From Desulfolithobacter dissulfuricans (GTDB lineage Bacteria > Desulfobacterota > Desulfobulbia > Desulfobulbales > Desulfobulbaceae): a stretch of DNA of 64,000 bases. The notes under the pieces are model-generated. The model saw nothing but the letters and a program-made list of their open reading frames with translations, was not told the DNA's origin and searched no databases. Location: contig NZ_AP024233.1 of assembly GCF_025998535.1 (NCBI RefSeq), positions 1,711,219-1,775,218 on the forward strand. The letters are read 5' to 3'. Every line of letters starts with the position of its first letter. Position 1 is the stretch's first letter. The position numbers and the translations under genes were made by a program. Positions 33,722 to 42,929 of this stretch are shown in pieces.

Positions 33722-34189
33722 ATGAATCGCAAACTGAAAATTCTCTTTCTCTGTACCGGCAACTCCTGTCGCAGTCAGATGGCCGAAGGCTGGGCCCGGG
33801 AGCTGAATTCCGACACCATCGAGGCCTGGTCCGCCGGCATCGAGCGCCATGGCCTCAACCCCAAAGCGGTCCAGGTCATGGCCGAGGCCGGGGTGGATAT
33901 CTCGACCCAGAGCTCGACCCTCATCGAAGAGCTGCCGGAGCAGGACTTTGACTACGTGATCACGGTCTGCGGCCATGCCCACGAGTCGTGCCCGCTCTTT
34001 CCCGGCAGGACCCGGGTCATCCACCGGGGTTTTGACGATCCTCCCAGGCTGGCCGCCACGGCAAAGAGCGAAGAAGAGGTCCTTGCCTGCTACCGGAGGG
34101 TGCGCGATGAGATCAGGGCCTTTGTCCTGGAGCTGCCGGAGATCCTCTCCGGGACAAGTTCCTGCAGCTCCGGGGCGAGCGCCGACTAA
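33722..34189 (+). CDS. arsC: Arsenate reductase, low-molecular-weight phosphatase type
   Basis: Reduces arsenate to arsenite with thioredoxin-type thiols. The 155-residue protein has the P-loop FLCTGNSCRSQMAEGW with the nucleophilic cysteine, WSAGIERHGLNPKAV, and the redox pair region VITVCGHAHESCP, followed by the DDPP loop in FDDPPRLAAT. The C-terminus has an extra Cys/Ser-rich tail (SGTSSCSSG). It begins 14 bases after the acr3 stop, so it belongs to the arsR-acr3-arsC operon. With acr3 broken, arsenate reduction alone would make arsenite that cannot be exported by this system. Confidence 0.93.
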   Translation: MNRKLKILFLCTGNSCRSQMAEGWARELNSDTIEAWSAGIERHGLNPKAVQVMAEAGVDISTQSSTLIEELPEQDFDYVITVCGHAHESCPLFPGRTRVIHRGFDDPPRLAATAKSEEEVLACYRRVRDEIRAFVLELPEILSGTSSCSSGASAD

Positions 34190-36066
34190 AATTCGATCTC
34201 GAAGCTGTAGACCCCCTCCTCCAGCCGGCTCTTGACCTTGTAGCCCGAGTGGTTGAAGATGGCCTGCATCCGGTAGTTGTCCCGCAGGACCTCGGCCGTG
34301 AACCCGGCGATGCCGTTACGCTTGGCAATGGTGATCAGGTGCCGGAAGAGGAAGGTGCCGATCCCCTTGCCCTGCCACTGGTCCTGGATCACGAAGGCGA
34401 CCTCGGCCTTGTTGGTCCGCTCGTTGAGATAGTAGCGTCCCACCGCGATGATCGCCTCTCCATGGGCCTCGGGCAAGGTGCCGACGATGGCCACATCCTT
34501 GCGATGGTCGATATAGACAAAATCGTGCAGCTGCCGGTGGGTGAACCGTTTCTGCCGGCTCATGAACCGGTAGTAGACGGTCTCCTGGGACAGGTTGTAC
34601 ATCAGTTCGCGCATGTGCGGCTCGTCGGTGGGCCGGATGGAGCGGAAAGTGACCAGGTTCCCGTCGTCGAGCAGCATGGTGGTGCGCATGTAGTCTTCGC
34701 CGGGAATGAAGAGACGGTCACCGAATTCCTCCATCTCCGGATGGATCAGCCGGGTCTCGATGGCTTCCCGGAAGAGCTGTTCGCGGAAATCGGGATGGGC
34801 GATGGAGATCAGGGCAATGACCCGTTCCTGGATGGACTTGCCGTGGAGAAAGGCCACCCCGTACTCGGTGACCACGTACTGGACCGTACCCCGGGTTATG
34901 ACCACTCCGGAGCCGGGCTGGAGCCGGGTGACGATGCGTGAGCGGCTGCCGTCCTCGTTGACAGAAGGCAGGGTCAGGATCGACTTGCCCCCTTCCGAGC
35001 GGGCCGCGCCCCGGTTGAAATCCACCTGGCCGCCGATCCCGGAATAGAACCGGCCGCCGACGGAATCGGAACAGACCTGGCCGGTGAGATCGATTTCCAG
35101 GGCCATGTTGACCGCCACCATCCGTTTCTGCCCGGCTATCACCTCGGAGTTGTTGACATATTCGGTGGGACGGAAACAGACACCGGGGTTGTCGTTGACA
35201 AAATCATAGAGCCGCCTGGTACCCATGCAGAACGAGGTGGTGATCTTGCCCCGGTCGATGGTCTTGCGGCGGCCGGTAACCACCCCGCACTCCACCAGGT
35301 CGATGATGGAGTCGGTGATCATCTCGGTGTGGACCCCCAGGTCCTTCTTGTCGTAGAGATGATCGAGCACCGCATGGGGCAGCCGGCCGATGCCCGGCAC
35401 CCGGCCAAGACCCAGCTCCAGGGTGGCGCCGTTGGGGATGAGGGCAGCCGCGTACCTGGCTATTTTGTCGCTGATCTCGTGGGTGGGATGATGTTCCCGC
35501 TCGATGAGCGGTGACTCCACCGGAACCAGGATATCGAGATCATAGACATCCACCTGCGAGCTGCCATGGGTCCAGGGCATGTTGGGATTGACCTGGGCAA
35601 TGACCAGGGAGGCGTTCTCCACCGCGGCGCGGACGATATCCACCGAAATACCCAGGCTCATCTTGCCCCGGGCATCGGGCGGGGTCACCTGGATGAGGGC
35701 CACGTCCAGCGGCAGCCGCCCACTGTGAAAGAGATCGGGAATGTCGGAGAGAAGAATGGGTGTGTAGGCCCCCACCCCTTCCTGGATCACGCCGCGGACA
35801 TTGGAACCGATGTAGAAGGAGTTGATGGTGAAACACTCGGCCAGGTGCTTTTCGGCATAGGGCGCATCACCCTTGGTGATAAGCTGGACGATCTCCACAT
35901 CGGACAGTTCGCCGGCCCGATCGGTCATGGCCCGGACCAGTTCCACCGGCTCGCCGCAGCCGGTACCGATGAACACCCGCTGTCCGGGGCGCAGATGGGA
36001 GAGCGCCTTGGCCGGGGTGGCGATCATGTCACCGTAGCGCTCTTTCCAGTCACTGTTATATTCCAT
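34186..36066 (-). CDS. Acetyl-CoA hydrolase/CoA-transferase fused to a GNAT acetyltransferase
   Basis: A 626-residue fusion. Residues 1 to about 430 form an acetyl-CoA hydrolase/4-hydroxybutyrate-type CoA-transferase (LRPGQRVFIGTGCGEPVELV, GLGRVPGIGRLPHAVL, DFNRGAARSEGGKSIL, VTEYGVAFLHGKSIQER). From about 460 a GNAT domain follows (RSIRPTDEPHMRELMYNLSQ, RYYLNERTNKAEVAFVIQDQ, and the acetyl-CoA loop QGKGIGTFLFRHL). It exchanges CoA between acyl groups and may acetylate a protein lysine. It is last in an operon with an acyl-CoA synthetase and a deacetylase. Its stop overlaps that of convergent arsC. Confidence 0.88.
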   Translation of the reverse strand: MEYNSDWKERYGDMIATPAKALSHLRPGQRVFIGTGCGEPVELVRAMTDRAGELSDVEIVQLITKGDAPYAEKHLAECFTINSFYIGSNVRGVIQEGVGAYTPILLSDIPDLFHSGRLPLDVALIQVTPPDARGKMSLGISVDIVRAAVENASLVIAQVNPNMPWTHGSSQVDVYDLDILVPVESPLIEREHHPTHEISDKIARYAAALIPNGATLELGLGRVPGIGRLPHAVLDHLYDKKDLGVHTEMITDSIIDLVECGVVTGRRKTIDRGKITTSFCMGTRRLYDFVNDNPGVCFRPTEYVNNSEVIAGQKRMVAVNMALEIDLTGQVCSDSVGGRFYSGIGGQVDFNRGAARSEGGKSILTLPSVNEDGSRSRIVTRLQPGSGVVITRGTVQYVVTEYGVAFLHGKSIQERVIALISIAHPDFREQLFREAIETRLIHPEMEEFGDRLFIPGEDYMRTTMLLDDGNLVTFRSIRPTDEPHMRELMYNLSQETVYYRFMSRQKRFTHRQLHDFVYIDHRKDVAIVGTLPEAHGEAIIAVGRYYLNERTNKAEVAFVIQDQWQGKGIGTFLFRHLITIAKRNGIAGFTAEVLRDNYRMQAIFNHSGYKVKSRLEEGVYSFEIEF

Positions 36067-36075
36067 GGGTTCCTC

Positions 36076-38193
36076 CTACCTCGGTGACGGAATATTTTTC
36101 GCTGGCGCCAGGGTCATCCTGGCATCTGCTGCCGTGGGCACGGTCCCGATTTCGCCGACGATCAGGGGATTGATATCCAGCTCGATAATCTGGGGAAAAT
36201 CCGTCGTCAGCTGGCTGATCCGCTGCAGGGAGCCGGCAATGGCATCGATATCCACCTCCTTGCGGCCCCGCTTGCCCTTGAGCATCTCGTAGGAACGGGT
36301 TGATTTGAGCATCTGCACCGCCTCCTCCCGGGTAATGGGTGCCAGATGGAAGGTCACGTCCTTCATTACCTCGACAAAGATACCGCCCAGGCCAAACATC
36401 AGCATGGGACCGAACTGGGGATCCCTGGTCATGCCGATGATCACCTCCAGGCCCGGATCGGCCATCTTCTCCACGTATACACCCTCGATCACCGCATCGG
36501 GCACCTGCTTGCTGATCCGCAGCATCATAAGGTCATAGGCGTCCTCCACCTCCTGGGCACTGGACAGCCCGAGGCGGACTCCACCGAGATCGGTCTTGTG
36601 GATGATGTTGGGCGAAACGATCTTCATGGCCACCGGAAAACCAATGAACCGGGCAATCTCGATGGCCTCGTTCACGCTGCCGGCCAGGCTGCCATCCATG
36701 ATGTGAAAACCGTACGCCTTGAGGATATCCTTGCTCTTCACCTCGCTGAGCTGAAGCTGGCCGGTGCGCTGACGGCGGGAGATGATCCGTTCCACCCGCC
36801 GCCGGTTGACCGGATAGCGGGTCACCTGGCGCGGCGGCCGCCGGCGCCAGACATTGTAATCGTACATGGCCTTGAGCGCCGACACTGCCCGTTCCGGCGA
36901 TTCATAATCCGGCAGCCCGGCCGCGGCCAGTTCCTGGCGACCAGGCAGCACGTCCTTGCCGCCCATGAACGACGCCAGCACCGGCTTGGAGCCATCCAGG
37001 GAGGCGGCAATGGCCCGGGCGGTCTCCACCGGCTTGGTCATCGCCTGCGGGGTCAGGAGAACCAGGATGGCATCCACGGACTCATCTTCCTGGGCTGCTT
37101 CCAGGGCGGCCACGTACCGATCCGGATCGGCATCGCCCAGTACGTCCACCGGGTTGCCCACCGAGGCACTGGCCGGCAGCCGGGCCCGCAGGGCCGTGGT
37201 GGTGTTTCGATCCAGGACCGCCACCTCAAGGCCGATCTTCTCCACGGCATCGGCGGCCATGGTCCCGGGGCCACCGGCATTGGTGATGATGAGCACCCGC
37301 TTGCCCCGGGGCAGGGGCTGCATGTCCAGCGCGGTGGCGTAGTCGAAAAGCGCATCGAAGGTATCGGCCCGGCAGACACCCGAACGCTTGAAGGCGGCCC
37401 CGTAGGCTGTTTCCGCCCCGGCCAGGACACCGGTATGGCTGGCTGCGGCCTTGCGGCCGGCGGCCGTGGTTCCGGACTTGAGCAGGATCACCGGTTTCTT
37501 GAGACAGGCCCGTTCCGCTGCCTTGACAAAATGGTCGCCGGAACTGATATCCTCCAGGTAGCCGACAATGACCGATGTGTCCTCGTCATCGGCCAGGGCC
37601 CGGAGCAGGTCCACCTCGGTGATGTCGGCCTTGTTGCCGATGGATACCAGCTTGGACAACCCGAGGTGCCGCTGGGCAGCCATGTCGAGCATGGCGGTGC
37701 ACAGGGCGCCGGACTGGGAGAAAACCGCGATGGAGCCCGGCTCGGGCATGCGGCCGGCAAAAGATGCGTTGAGATGAGTGGCGGTATTGATCAGTCCCAG
37801 GCAGTTGGGGCCAAGCATCCGGGCCCCGCCCCGGCGGACGATGTCGGCCAGTTCTTTTTCCCGCTTACGCCCTTCGTCACCTACCTCCTTGAACCCGGCG
37901 CTGATAACCACCACTCCGCCGGCCCCCTTGGCTACCGCCTCCCGGGCCGCCTCCAGAACCAGCTGACTGGGCAGGACGATCACCACCAGGTCAACGGTCT
38001 GGTCATAATCGGCCAGACGTTTGTAGACCTTCTGGCCGAGAATTTCCCCGCCGGCCGGATTGACCGGGACAATGGGACCCCCGAAGCCGGATTCCACCAG
38101 GTTCTTCAGGATATCATAGCCCACCTTGCCCGGTGTCCTGGAGGCACCGATGACCGCCACGGAACCGGGGGCAAAGAGTTTTTCAAGTGTCAT
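36076..38193 (-). CDS. ADP-forming acyl-CoA (acetate-CoA) synthetase, fused alpha-beta
   Basis: A 705-residue NDP-forming acyl-CoA synthetase that interconverts acyl-CoA and acid with ADP/ATP, common in anaerobes for energy conservation from acetyl-CoA. It has the N-terminal CoA-binding domain (FAPGSVAVIGASRTPGKVGY), the ligase domain with SIGNKADITEVDLL and the phosphohistidine in AAASHTGVLAGAETAYGAAF, then an ATP-grasp beta part (FPVAMKIVSPNIIHKTDLGG, MLMFGLGGIFVEVMKDVTFH). The start overlaps the CBS-ACT gene stop. It could instead act as a protein acetyltransferase scaffold (Pat-like), but the GNAT is on the neighbouring gene. Confidence 0.9.
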   Translation of the reverse strand: MTLEKLFAPGSVAVIGASRTPGKVGYDILKNLVESGFGGPIVPVNPAGGEILGQKVYKRLADYDQTVDLVVIVLPSQLVLEAAREAVAKGAGGVVVISAGFKEVGDEGRKREKELADIVRRGGARMLGPNCLGLINTATHLNASFAGRMPEPGSIAVFSQSGALCTAMLDMAAQRHLGLSKLVSIGNKADITEVDLLRALADDEDTSVIVGYLEDISSGDHFVKAAERACLKKPVILLKSGTTAAGRKAAASHTGVLAGAETAYGAAFKRSGVCRADTFDALFDYATALDMQPLPRGKRVLIITNAGGPGTMAADAVEKIGLEVAVLDRNTTTALRARLPASASVGNPVDVLGDADPDRYVAALEAAQEDESVDAILVLLTPQAMTKPVETARAIAASLDGSKPVLASFMGGKDVLPGRQELAAAGLPDYESPERAVSALKAMYDYNVWRRRPPRQVTRYPVNRRRVERIISRRQRTGQLQLSEVKSKDILKAYGFHIMDGSLAGSVNEAIEIARFIGFPVAMKIVSPNIIHKTDLGGVRLGLSSAQEVEDAYDLMMLRISKQVPDAVIEGVYVEKMADPGLEVIIGMTRDPQFGPMLMFGLGGIFVEVMKDVTFHLAPITREEAVQMLKSTRSYEMLKGKRGRKEVDIDAIAGSLQRISQLTTDFPQIIELDINPLIVGEIGTVPTAADARMTLAPAKNIPSPR

Positions 38194-38855
38194 GAACCCA
38201 TCCTCCTCTCGCCCGGCAGGTGCACCGTAAAACCGGCCTGTTCGATGAGCCGGTGCACTGCGGGTATATTACAGGTACTGATCCGGAAATAGAGCATGTC
38301 CGGTTCGTTCTCCCGATGGTCGGAGCGGATCACCCGGGTCACATGGATATCGTGTTCCTCGAGGGTCAGGATCAAGCGGCCCAAAGCTCCCGGCTCCCCG
38401 CTGTCGGTGGCCGCCACCAGGCAGGACCCCCTTTCCCTCAGGCCAAAGAGCGAACTGTAGGCCGAGACCAGATCGTTGAGGGAAAGGATACCAATCAGCC
38501 GCCCCTCCTGATCCAGAACCGGCAGGGCCCCCACCTTGTGACTCTGGAACAGGAGCAGGGCATCATCCAGGGTCGAACCGGTGGAGAGGGTGACGAATTC
38601 TCTGGTCATGATGGCATGAACCGGCGTTCTCTTGACCCGGTCCAGGACCAGCTGCCGCTCATCTTCGTCAAGCACCGACGACGGATAGGCCAGGCGCAGG
38701 TCCCGATCCGTGACCATACCCTGCAACCGGTTCCCGTCATCCACAACCGGCAGGTGCCGAAACCCATGCTTTAGAAGGATCTCTCTGGCTTCGGGAATGC
38801 AGACATCCGGTCCGACGGTCATCGGATCCGGGGTCATATGGTAGGTTACAAACAT
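38190..38855 (-). CDS. CBS-pair and ACT domain protein, AcuB-like
   Basis: A 221-residue protein with two CBS domains (MTPDPMTVGPDVCIPEAREI; MTREFVTLSTGSTLDDALLL ending LIGILSLNDLV) and a C-terminal ACT-like domain (ATDSGEPGALGRLILTLEE). CBS pairs usually bind adenine nucleotides, and ACT domains small ligands, so it probably senses energy or CoA state. The layout matches AcuB of acetoin operons. It lies between the deacetylase and the ADP-forming synthetase with overlapping ends on both sides, implying it regulates them. Confidence 0.85.
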   Translation of the reverse strand: MFVTYHMTPDPMTVGPDVCIPEAREILLKHGFRHLPVVDDGNRLQGMVTDRDLRLAYPSSVLDEDERQLVLDRVKRTPVHAIMTREFVTLSTGSTLDDALLLFQSHKVGALPVLDQEGRLIGILSLNDLVSAYSSLFGLRERGSCLVAATDSGEPGALGRLILTLEEHDIHVTRVIRSDHRENEPDMLYFRISTCNIPAVHRLIEQAGFTVHLPGERRMGS

Positions 38856-39874
38856 CTTTGTTTTTCTCCACTTTTCTCCCGGCCGGGATGACTATTGCCT
38901 TCCGACCCGGTTACTGCTGATAGCTGACCTGCCAGGTAGGCCTCCACACTGGCGGCCAGAGAGTCTGGATGATAGCCACCCTCGAGGATGGAAATCATCC
39001 GCCCGCGGCAAAAACGCGCTGCCCAGTCGCCCAGCCGGAAACCGATAATCCGGTACAGGTCCGTGGACCAGGCCAGGCCCGACATGTCATCGAGCCGGTG
39101 GGCGTCAAAGCCGGCGGCCACCACCAGGCACTGGGGCTGGAACCGCTCCAGGGCGTCTTGCACCGGTCCATCCAGGACCTCGATAACCCTGGCATCGCCG
39201 GCGCCCGGTGCCAGGGGGATATTGAGCACCGTCCCCCGGGCCGGGCCGGTCCCCTGCTCTTCCTGGTAGCCGGTCCCCGGATAGCTGAAACTGGGATGTT
39301 CATGGATGGATATGTAGAGGGTGTCCACGTCCTTGTCAAAGGCGGTCTGGATGCCGTTGCCGTGGTGGGCGTCAAAATCAAGCACACAGATCCGGCGTCG
39401 GCCATACTCCTTTTGCCAGTAACGCACCGCCAGGACGCAGTTGTTCAGAAAACAGAAACCAAGCGGCATCCCCGGTTCGGCATGGTGTCCCGGCGGCCGG
39501 GTACAGGAGAAGACCGGCCCGGAAAAGCCCCCTTCCACCAGGTCGACTGCCACCATACCGCTCCCGGCGGAAAGCTGGGCCACCTGGTAGGTCTCATAAC
39601 CCACCTGGTTGTCGGGATGGTCGATATAGGTGCGGCCGGCAAGAACGGCCTCTTCGAAACGGAAAAGCCAGGCTTCGGAATGAAAGGAGAGCAGGTCTTC
39701 CCGCTGCGGCATACGGGATGAATGAAAAACAAGATGGGGGGCCAGTGGTCCGTTGCAGAGCTGCTGCTCGATGGCCAGCAGTCGTTCAGGGGTTTCCGGA
39801 TGGTCGCCGCCCCCGGTATCGTGTTCGAGGAAGCGGGGATCCCTGATAAGTGCTATCTGTGGAACCGTCGTCAT
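38846..39874 (-). CDS. Histone-deacetylase-family protein, AcuC-like
   Basis: Zinc-dependent deacetylase of 342 residues from MTTVPQIALIRDP at 39874; a longer frame to 39940 is less likely. Catalytic motifs are RPPGHHAEPGMPLGFCFLNN (tandem histidines), CVLDFDAHHGNGIQ (zinc Asp/His), and AGFDAHRLDDMSGLAW (second zinc aspartate). The family includes AcuC, which removes acetyl groups from acyl-CoA synthetases, and polyamine deacetylases. Its operon with a synthetase and a GNAT supports the first role. It is the first gene of the operon. Confidence 0.85.
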   Translation of the reverse strand: MTTVPQIALIRDPRFLEHDTGGGDHPETPERLLAIEQQLCNGPLAPHLVFHSSRMPQREDLLSFHSEAWLFRFEEAVLAGRTYIDHPDNQVGYETYQVAQLSAGSGMVAVDLVEGGFSGPVFSCTRPPGHHAEPGMPLGFCFLNNCVLAVRYWQKEYGRRRICVLDFDAHHGNGIQTAFDKDVDTLYISIHEHPSFSYPGTGYQEEQGTGPARGTVLNIPLAPGAGDARVIEVLDGPVQDALERFQPQCLVVAAGFDAHRLDDMSGLAWSTDLYRIIGFRLGDWAARFCRGRMISILEGGYHPDSLAASVEAYLAGQLSAVTGSEGNSHPGREKSGEKQRCL

Positions 39875-39963: not shown

Positions 39964-39992
39964 TTTTTATTTTAAATTCAGTGCGTTATAAT
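39964..39992 (+). promoter_or_regulatory. Candidate promoter of the UGA-containing gene
   Basis: A consensus TATAAT at 39987-39992 lies in an AT-rich stretch; the -35 region (39964-39969, TTTTTA) is weak. A start near 40000 would leave a leader of about 33 bases with GGGGAGCAGG before the ATG at 40033. Confidence 0.5.
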
Positions 39993-40032
39993 AGTAGATA
40001 CAACTGGCAATTCAGACAGGGGAGCAGGGCAC

Positions 40033-40299
40033 ATGAAAGATACGAACAGAGAAATAACCTTTTACAAATCAAGCCTCTGACCGCGCTGCATGCTGGTCAG
40101 CCGGGAGCTGAAAAAACTGGAAAAGGAAATGCCGGGGCTTACAATCAACCGGATCGATATCGTGACTCATCCTGGCCGAGCCTGGAAAGACGGGGTGCGG
40201 ATGATCCCAACCCTGCGGGCAGGCGAACAAACCCTCAGCGGCATCTTCCTCAGTCCTGAGCAGATCCGGGCCTTTGTTGCAAAGGCAAGGGAAAAATAA
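40033..40299 (+). CDS. Probable selenoprotein: thioredoxin-fold protein with a UxxC motif
   Basis: Read through one in-frame UGA (40078-40080), the frame gives 88 residues: MKDTNREITFYKSSL, then U16, then PRCMLVSRELKKLEKEMPG. The UGA falls exactly where the first cysteine of a thioredoxin-type CPRC motif belongs after a beta strand (ITFYKSS). Later VRMIPTL supplies the usual cis-proline, and the frame continues without other stops to AKAREK. GGGGAG precedes the ATG. A hairpin suited to a bacterial SECIS follows the UGA. The alternative, a chance nonsense mutation, is less likely because homology is continuous on both sides and the motif position is exact. Confidence 0.75.
40078..40111 (+). 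promoter_or_regulatory. SECIS-like hairpin after the UGA codon
   Basis: UGA at 40078-40080 is followed 16 bases later by the stem TCAGC (40097-40101), loop CGGGA, stem GCTGA (40107-40111). A small stem with a G-rich loop about 20 bases after the UGA is what bacterial SelB recognises. An alternative stem CTGACC/GGTCAG includes the UGA itself. Confidence 0.55.
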
Positions 40300-40400: not shown

Positions 40401-42929
40401 TCAGGCCTTTTGCTGATCTAGCACTCTGCGTACCGTTCGAAGGAGTTCATGCATGACCAGGGGTTTCTGCATGTATTCACTGATGCCCAGGGACAGAGCC
40501 TTGTCCCGGCTCATGGTTTCACTGTAACCGGTACAGAGAATAACCGGCAGGTCGGGATATTTTTCAAAAATGCGTGCTGCCAGCCGATCACCGGTCAATC
40601 CGGGCATGGTCATATCGGTTATAACCAGATCGACGCTCTGACATTTATTCAGAAAATCAAGGAGTGCTGCAGGCTGACAGAATGAGGTGACCCTGTATCC
40701 GTAACGGCTGAGCATTTCCTCACACAGTTCGACAATTTCCTTTTCATCATCCACAAAGAGAATATGTTCCTTCCCGCCTGCAATCTTCGGCACCTCTTTT
40801 ATCTCAGCATCCGACGTATCAGAGTTTACGATACGCGGCAGATAAACCTGAAATAAACTGCCCTGGTCCGGGCTGGAGTGTACCACGATCTGCCCTCCAT
40901 AACTCTGCACAATTCCGTGTACCACTGCCAGACCAAGTCCGGTGCCCTCTCCCGCCTCCTTGGTGGTAAAATAGGGTTCAAAGATATGAGCTCGGGTCTC
41001 TTCATCCATACCTTCACCGGTGTCACTGACTTCCAGCAGCAGATAGGGACCTGGCGCCGTGTCCGGAAGCCTGATTTCGCTGTCCGCGGAGATATCGACC
41101 TCGTGCAGGGCAACGCCCAGCGTTCCTCCATGTCGGCGCATGGCATGATAGGCATTGGTACAGAGATTCATGATGATCTGCTGAAGCTGGGTAGTGTCTG
41201 CCAGGATGGTTGCCTTGCTCTGGATATCCTGTTCGATGGTAATATTTGACGGAATCGAGGAGCGGAGCAGCTTCAGCGCCTCCTTGATCACCAGTTGCGC
41301 CTCGAGGGGTTTGCGTTCTTCCTTGCTTCGTCTGCTGAAGGCGAGTATCTGCTGGACAAGTTTCCTGGCCCGTTCCGCTGCCACGTGCACCTGAACCAGG
41401 TCCTGCCCGACGTCACTGTTTTCCCCGACTTTCAGCCGTGCCATCTCGATATAGCCAAAAATAACCGATAGAATGTTGTTAAAATCATGGGCGATACCGC
41501 CAGCCAGTGTGCCGATGGCTTCCAGTTTATGGGCCTGGCGCAGTTCCTCCTCCATCTTCTTGCGGGCGCTGATCTCTTTGGCCATGATAAAGAGGTATTC
41601 CTGGCCTCTGTACTGGAAATAGCTGGTGCTCACCTCTATGGGTCTCAATGAACCGTCTCTGTGACGAACTTCTGTCTCATAGGAGGAAAAAACGTTTTTC
41701 TTCAATCTCTCAACAAGCTGTGCATATTTCTCTTCCAGGGAATCATGCCCGATATCTGCGGCGCTCATCTGCAGCAACTCTTCCCGGGAATATCCGAGAT
41801 TTTGACAGGCGGCATCGTTGACATAAACGATTCTTGTCTCGCCCGCTGTCTTGCCCGGCTGATACCAGACGACGGGGATCCCACTGGAATCCAACGCATA
41901 TTTGGCCATATACAGTTCCTGCTCGGTCCTGCGCTGACGGGTCAGGTCCTGGAGTATGACCTGTAGATACGACCGTTCCCGGTCAATGGATATAACGGTC
42001 ATGCACACATCTATCAGCTTGCCATCCAGGCGACGACAGACCCATTCAACATGTTGTGTCCCCTGCTCATGGCACCTTTTCTCCAACTCGATGAGCTGTT
42101 CCCGGGATGTCTCCCCTTCAGGCTGTTTTTCCGGAGCCAGATCCACGGGCCTTGCTCCGAGCAGATCTTCCCTGCTGCAGGCAAAAATCTCTGCCGCCTT
42201 CTGGTTGCAGTCATCTATCACCCCGTTTTTCAGTAAGAAGACACCTTCCGGGGTATTATGGAACAAATACTGGTACAGTCTCTGGTTATAACGGTACTCG
42301 GTGATATCATGGCCTTCCGGCAGGAGATAACGGGTTTTCCCTCCCTGGTCTTTTACAGGGCGCATGGAAAAATCTATATACTGGGGCTCACCGTTCTCAT
42401 CATGCACGTAGGCCTCAAAGCGTACCTCCCGGCCACGGCGAGCCAGCCGTACCGCACCCCTGACCCGTTCATGCTGACTTGGGCAACGACTCCACCACGG
42501 GGCTTCCCAGAAAAGTTTCCCTCGTATCTCCCCTTCCTGGCAACCGGCCAGAACAAGAGCCGCCTCGTTCACATAAAGAACAGTGCCGTCGGAATCGAGC
42601 AGAGCTGCGGGGTGGCGGAGCTGTTGAAAAACAGCCTGAAACTTGTTTTCCAACTCCTGGTTTTCCCGGCGGTGCTGATTGATCTTGTTCCTGAGACGTT
42701 GATTGTACAGAACAAGGCCAATGATAAGGACCAGAATCAGCAAATCGAAAAACACCACGGCCAGGACTTCCGGACTGGCCCACAGCAGGCCTATGACAGA
42801 CGCATCGGATGCCAGGCTGGCGTTTGGCGTGAAAATAAGCAAGGACAGAAGCCAGGCGACAAAACGACTGGATGTGATGGAAAAACCGCACCTGCGTGAT
42901 GGTTTCCTGTTGCGGCTGTAAACTATCAT
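40401..42929 (-). CDS. Membrane hybrid histidine kinase with three PAS domains and a receiver
   Basis: An 842-residue sensor. There is a hydrophobic stretch at about residues 22-42 and a membrane helix at about 55-76 ([20 protein letters not shown]), then a short coiled coil. Three PAS domains follow, roughly 97-210, 220-335 and 345-455, then HisKA with the phospho-histidine in [13 protein letters not shown], an HATPase domain ([34 protein letters not shown]), and a receiver ([14 protein letters not shown], phospho-aspartate in [11 protein letters not shown]). No cognate output regulator adjoins it. The stimulus is unknown; no obvious haem or flavin signature was noted. Confidence 0.92.

Follow-up and report, generated by a model that had tools for sequence, protein, structure and literature searches.

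The stretch of DNA considered here contains a short reading frame that is interrupted, after fifteen codons, by a single in-frame TGA. We wish to determine whether this TGA ends a protein, or whether it is instead read as selenocysteine (Sec) in the active site of a small redox protein. The frame lies in what we call the window, that is, the whole stretch of 64,000 nucleotides that was analysed (G000:C1:1711219-1775218), which belongs to a closed genome of one contig and 3,596,428 bases. The organism, Desulfolithobacter dissulfuricans GF1, is a deep-sea sulfur-disproportionating bacterium of the Desulfobulbaceae, and its genome is given as GCA_025998535.1 in PMC12013277.

An earlier note on this DNA had described an ATG with a good ribosome binding site, followed by fifteen codons, one TGA and 72 more codons up to a stop, with the TGA standing at the first Cys of a CPRC motif and an IPTL segment supplying a cis-proline. 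All of these elements are found in the sequence. A GGAG stands 8 nt upstream of the ATG at 40033, and the frame runs from there through 15 codons to the TGA at 40078-40080, and on through 72 codons to a TAA at 40297-40299 (Table 1). The motif thus reads U16-P17-R18-C19, and the full product is MKDTNREITFYKSSLUPRCMLVSRELKKLEKEMPGLTINRIDIVTHPGRAWKDGVRMIPTLRAGEQTLSGIFLSPEQIRAFVAKAREK. In an alignment of 60 proteins, residues 16-19 and Pro59, the proline of IPTL, are invariant, and Tyr11, Ser13, Leu26, Pro47, Gly70 and Phe81 are nearly so. The note had also drawn attention to an ATG at 40090, downstream of the active site. A 69-residue reading frame does start there, but comparison with homologs makes this ATG a likely point of mis-annotation and not the start of a product. 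A scan for promoters and terminators returned no convincing site; a TATAAT at 39987-39992 was spotted by eye only. Elsewhere in the window, the minus strand at 29022-29159 matches an Rfam group II intron above the gathering score (46.9 bits).

Table 1. Positions, in the window, of the elements of the UPRC gene and of its neighbours, with the basis of each assignment.
Feature	Position	Strand	Basis
Shine-Dalgarno-like AGGGGAG	40018..40024	+	sequence; its GGAG is 8 nt before the ATG
CDS, 88-residue thioredoxin-like probable selenoprotein, TGA read as Sec	40033..40299	+	homologs cover both flanks of the TGA
In-frame TGA, probable Sec16, first residue of UPRC	40078..40080	+	codon is TGA in 52 homologous genes, Cys in 58
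Cys19 of UPRC, presumed resolving cysteine	40087..40089	+	invariant in the 60-row alignment
Mechanical ORF from internal ATG, 69 aa, without Sec	40090..40299	+	ATG there in 21/52 TGA genes and 4/58 Cys genes
Putative SECIS apical hairpin: TCAGC (40097-40101), loop CGGGA (40102-40106), GCTGA (40107-40111)	40097..40111	+	comparative
Pro59, cis-proline of IPTL	40207..40209	+	alignment invariance; predicted fold
Acetyl-CoA hydrolase/transferase with C-terminal GNAT acetyltransferase fusion	34186..36066	-	domain matches
ADP-forming acyl-CoA synthetase type	36076..38193	-	CoA-binding, Succ_CoA_lig, ATP-grasp_5
CBS-domain protein (AcuB-like)	38190..38855	-	Pfam CBS, E 4e-30
AcuC-like histone-deacetylase-family protein, divergent	38846..39871	-	PF00850, E 8e-79; first divergent neighbour in 31 neighbourhoods
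PAS-sensor hybrid histidine kinase, convergent	40401..42929	-	Pfam

Homologs were sought in 196 related genomes, of which 111 gave matches, the organism's own genome included. At the site of the TGA, the 110 homologous genes (counting the window's own) carry TGA in 52 cases, TGC in 39 and TGT in 19, and Pro-Arg-Cys follows this codon in every one of them. That the codon should be TGA or a Cys codon in 110 genes, and never anything else, is far beyond chance. Cys in place of U at codon 16, which the earlier note had proposed to look for among homologs, is therefore what we find wherever Sec itself is not encoded. All 110 genes fall within one order among the genomes searched. By its identifiable members this order is Desulfobulbales, to which it is tied by a close homolog (L001) from the Desulfobulbaceae assembly UBA10518, which is of the same family as the window's organism. 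A profile search at E 1e-8 across 395 genomes of the phylum, in which the best 14 candidates per genome were scored so that rare outsiders are possible, found no members outside the order. Two of the three matches of the contig search (L002 and L003) were spurious short matches and were rejected as homologs.

These homologs bear directly on the simplest alternative, according to which the TGA is a true stop, so that the locus would comprise a 15-codon leader and a separate protein of 69 residues from the ATG at 40090, or else a decayed gene. The mechanical reading frame from 40090 does exist, but the ATG that follows UPRC is missing from most homologs, and the frame is kept on both sides of the TGA, with 58 genes reading straight through it with Cys. 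Nor do the homologs begin after the UGA, a pattern that the earlier note had named as counting against its proposal; instead, the residues upstream of the TGA (ITFYKS) are conserved, which places the true start ahead of the TGA and not at the downstream ATG. As for decay, it would not leave TGA at one and the same codon in 52 genes from different species. A true stop is, on this evidence, extremely unlikely.

If the TGA is recoded, a bacterial SECIS element is to be sought just downstream, and the earlier note had pointed to a SECIS-like hairpin 16 bases past the TGA. The hairpin begins after exactly 16 intervening bases. Taking the T of the TGA as position 0, we scored each gene for a perfect stem of 5 bp with a 5-nt loop at either +19 or +26. 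Such a stem is found in 39 of the 52 TGA genes, as compared with 5.1 on average, and 12 at most, over 1000 synonymous resamplings, a test that is somewhat favourable to the hairpin because both offsets were picked after viewing the sequences. The Cys genes, controls with a slid register and covariation are less exposed to this choice. Among the 58 Cys genes, a perfect stem occurs in two (L148 and L160), against 1.5 expected. Among the 35 genes of the +19 group, paired cells make up 92.6% and four of the five pairs have changed on both sides, whereas pairing falls to 18-44% when the register is slid. The +26 group (17 genes, 15 of them distinct) pairs at 100%, and two of its pairs have changed on both sides. 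In 40 Cys genes, used as controls, the same columns pair at 48%. A G lies within the first two loop positions in 49 of the 52 TGA genes.

The published model of bacterial SECIS elements calls for a stem of 4-16 bp, a loop of 3-9 nt with a G in its first two positions, a distance of 16-37 nt from UGA to loop, and a minimum free energy (MFE) of at most -7.5 kcal/mol (PMC13188914). With 5 bp, the 5-nt loop CGGGA and a distance of 21 nt between TGA and loop, the window's hairpin lies within the model's limits for stem, loop, G and spacing, but the MFE of the apical hairpin alone, about -5.6 to -6.0 kcal/mol, is weaker than the cut-off. The 43-nt piece that starts at the TGA reaches -12.6 kcal/mol, but does so via another pairing: taken in isolation, a competing stem that involves the TGA is the more stable one, and the longer fold prefers other pairing as well. 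By energy alone the hairpin is no better than shuffled sequences (z = -0.09). A search of Rfam at the TGA site returned no SECIS or other family, either at the gathering score or permissively; since bacterial SECIS elements are too varied, we do not count this result against the hairpin. Single-sequence folding thus lends the proposed hairpin no support, and it is covariation, together with near-absence from the Cys relatives, that speaks for it. Comparison across the UPRC family shows this putative SECIS to be under selection.

The machinery for inserting Sec, whose four genes the earlier note would have sought in the full genome, is present in GF1 with every component above its curated cut-off: selA (637 bits), selB (380 bits), selD (352 bits) and one tRNA-Sec (selC, 73 bits) with the anticodon tca (UCA). 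The selD gene (L051, G000:C1:2931160-2932086, minus strand), with a TGA inside its frame, is a selenoprotein gene too. In the wider sample, selA was matched in 169 of the 196 genomes. For a check of selB and tRNA-Sec we picked 11 genomes that have no selA match among the matches listed; selB is present in 10 of these and tRNA-Sec in 9. The sole genome of the 11 to lack both (G193) carries a Cys copy. Counting against our reading is G110, a near-complete genome that has a TGA copy (gene L092) and in which selB and tRNA-Sec are present but selA was not matched. A divergent selA, a missing stretch or an assembly gap could each account for that absence.

It is also conceivable that the TGA is translated, but as Cys or some other residue by an opal-reading tRNA. 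Cys occupies the site in many homologs, and so Cys would work there. The canonical tRNA-Sec (tca) is present, however, and the weaker tRNA-Sec-like matches examined proved to be ordinary Ser, Leu, Tyr and Trp tRNAs, which read other codons. Moreover, the covarying SECIS goes with the TGA, and nearly all Cys genes are without it. We give such a decoding almost no weight. Very probably, then, the TGA is recoded as Sec in a thioredoxin-like redox protein, a degree of confidence that does not extend to any particular substrate.

The two SECIS registers are not scattered among the TGA genes, but follow the tree of 109 proteins: the +19 register is found in 35 genes of families f1, f3 and f15, and the +26 register in 17 genes of family f12 only. 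Because the registers are 7 nt apart, the hairpins lie over different codons of the same protein. One tentative reading, to which we assign somewhat less than an even chance, is that at least two lineages of the order gained Sec, independently of each other, at this one active-site position; the alternative is a shift of one ancestral SECIS.

On the same tree, which has few columns and is unrooted, the distribution of Sec and Cys needs 12 changes, at least 8 of which are forced by well-supported branches. Two Cys genes (L148 and L160, both with TGC) differ from their TGA siblings at 7 and 4 of 120 nt, respectively, and such near-identity suggests that Sec was replaced by Cys very recently in these two. 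Both still have an intact SECIS hairpin despite the Cys codon. Across the UPRC family, comparison shows Sec and Cys to be equivalent at position 16.

What kind of protein, then, would carry this residue? AlphaFold2 predicts a compact thioredoxin fold (pLDDT 80.6). The top Foldseek matches of the model are thioredoxins (E about 1e-6, TM about 0.75-0.8), with which it aligns in VIA-align at a Z of about 12 and an rmsd of 1.6-2.3 over 80-87 residues. The protein is thus predicted to have a thioredoxin fold with UxxC and a cis-proline. It is assigned to no known family by score: no Pfam model reaches its gathering score, and no NCBIfam cut-off is passed, the best match being 23.8 bits against the 92.75 required for the MJ0307 family thioredoxin (TIGR00411; PDB 1fo5). 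This very short thioredoxin is also the best NCBIfam resemblance of 56 of the 60 members scanned, whose commonest resemblances are TIGR00411 and Pfam Thioredoxin, and 1fo5 is the best PDB profile match (E 3e-12).

Among the closest known systems are the UxxC thioredoxin selenoproteins of PF00085, which are listed as experimentally verified (PMC13188914). The thioredoxin fold, Sec as the first residue of UxxC, a bacterial SECIS and the existence of Cys relatives are common to both. The window's protein differs by description, being shorter (88 residues) and having the motif UPRC; by score, at 21.6 bits against a PF00085 cut-off of 23.5; and by distribution, in that the UPRC profile has no match outside the order at E 1e-8 in the phylum sample. 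The glutaredoxin-like DUF836 family (PF05768) and Thioredoxin_3 (PF13192) are likewise small and align over most of the protein's length, but the scores, 24.1 bits against a gathering score of 26 and 21.4 against 24.8, fall short, and the listed Thioredoxin_3 selenoproteins Sec.1 and Sec.2 have CxU or UxC where UxxC is found here. The UXX-star selenoproteins (NF041212, NF041211, NF047338) are likewise small glutaredoxin-like (seleno)proteins; the window's protein, with its UxxC, scores far below their cut-offs.

The earlier note had spoken of a small selenium-dependent redox protein. The selenoprotein part of this description is supported by the evidence above, and the redox role of the UPRC protein we infer from the motif and the predicted fold. 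Insertion of Sec as the first residue of UPRC would proceed by recruitment, through the hairpin 16 nt downstream, of SelB with Sec-tRNA(UCA). The selenolate of Sec16 would attack a disulfide or similar bond of the target, as in thioredoxin; Cys19 would resolve the mixed intermediate, leaving an internal Se-S bond; and an enzyme of the thioredoxin-reductase type would presumably reset this bond by reduction, completing the catalytic cycle. By eye the protein has no signal sequence, and it is probably cytoplasmic.

The gene stands alone in the window. The deacetylase, CBS, synthetase and hydrolase-GNAT genes upstream form what looks like a compact module of the protein-acylation or acyl-CoA type, which part of the order conserves. 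A further reading makes the selenoprotein a dedicated redox partner of this adjoining module, which is found upstream in divergent orientation in 51 of 109 neighbourhoods (34 with TGA and 17 with Cys), mainly in two families of the order. The selenoprotein gene is not, however, co-transcribed with the module, and the shared position may be inherited synteny. In another 50 neighbourhoods, moreover, the same strand instead carries, close to the gene, ftsH and folP (both named by eye from sequence) and a gene for a class I adenylate cyclase. A dedicated partnership with the module is thus unlikely. Since synteny takes two forms and no operon partner is constant, the protein more likely has a general role in thiol-disulfide chemistry than one devoted to a partner among these neighbours.

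Thioredoxin-like UxxC selenoproteins are a known kind. A 2026 inventory of 119 families includes Trx, Grx and several thioredoxin-like families, none of which is described by UPRC (PMC13188914), and our literature search found no text in which UPRC occurs together with selenoprotein, or CPRC together with both selenocysteine and thioredoxin. A 2025 study counts 22 known selenoproteins in the GF1 genome and none that is new (PMC12013277); the UPRC gene may be among those 22, under thioredoxin or glutaredoxin.

The UPRC proteins would thus constitute a family of thioredoxin-like selenoproteins that, within the sampled genomes, is restricted to a single order. Since none of the family models tried names them, standard annotation is likely to cut off their active site. 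Closely related species have proteins in which a single residue, Sec in one and Cys in the other, is the only difference, and this makes the family a good system for measuring the advantage of Sec over Cys and for tracing how SECIS elements arise and vanish within coding sequence. If the independent gains of Sec considered above are true, the family would be a natural experiment in which Sec has been gained and lost repeatedly, and in which nearly identical siblings with Sec and with Cys can be compared.
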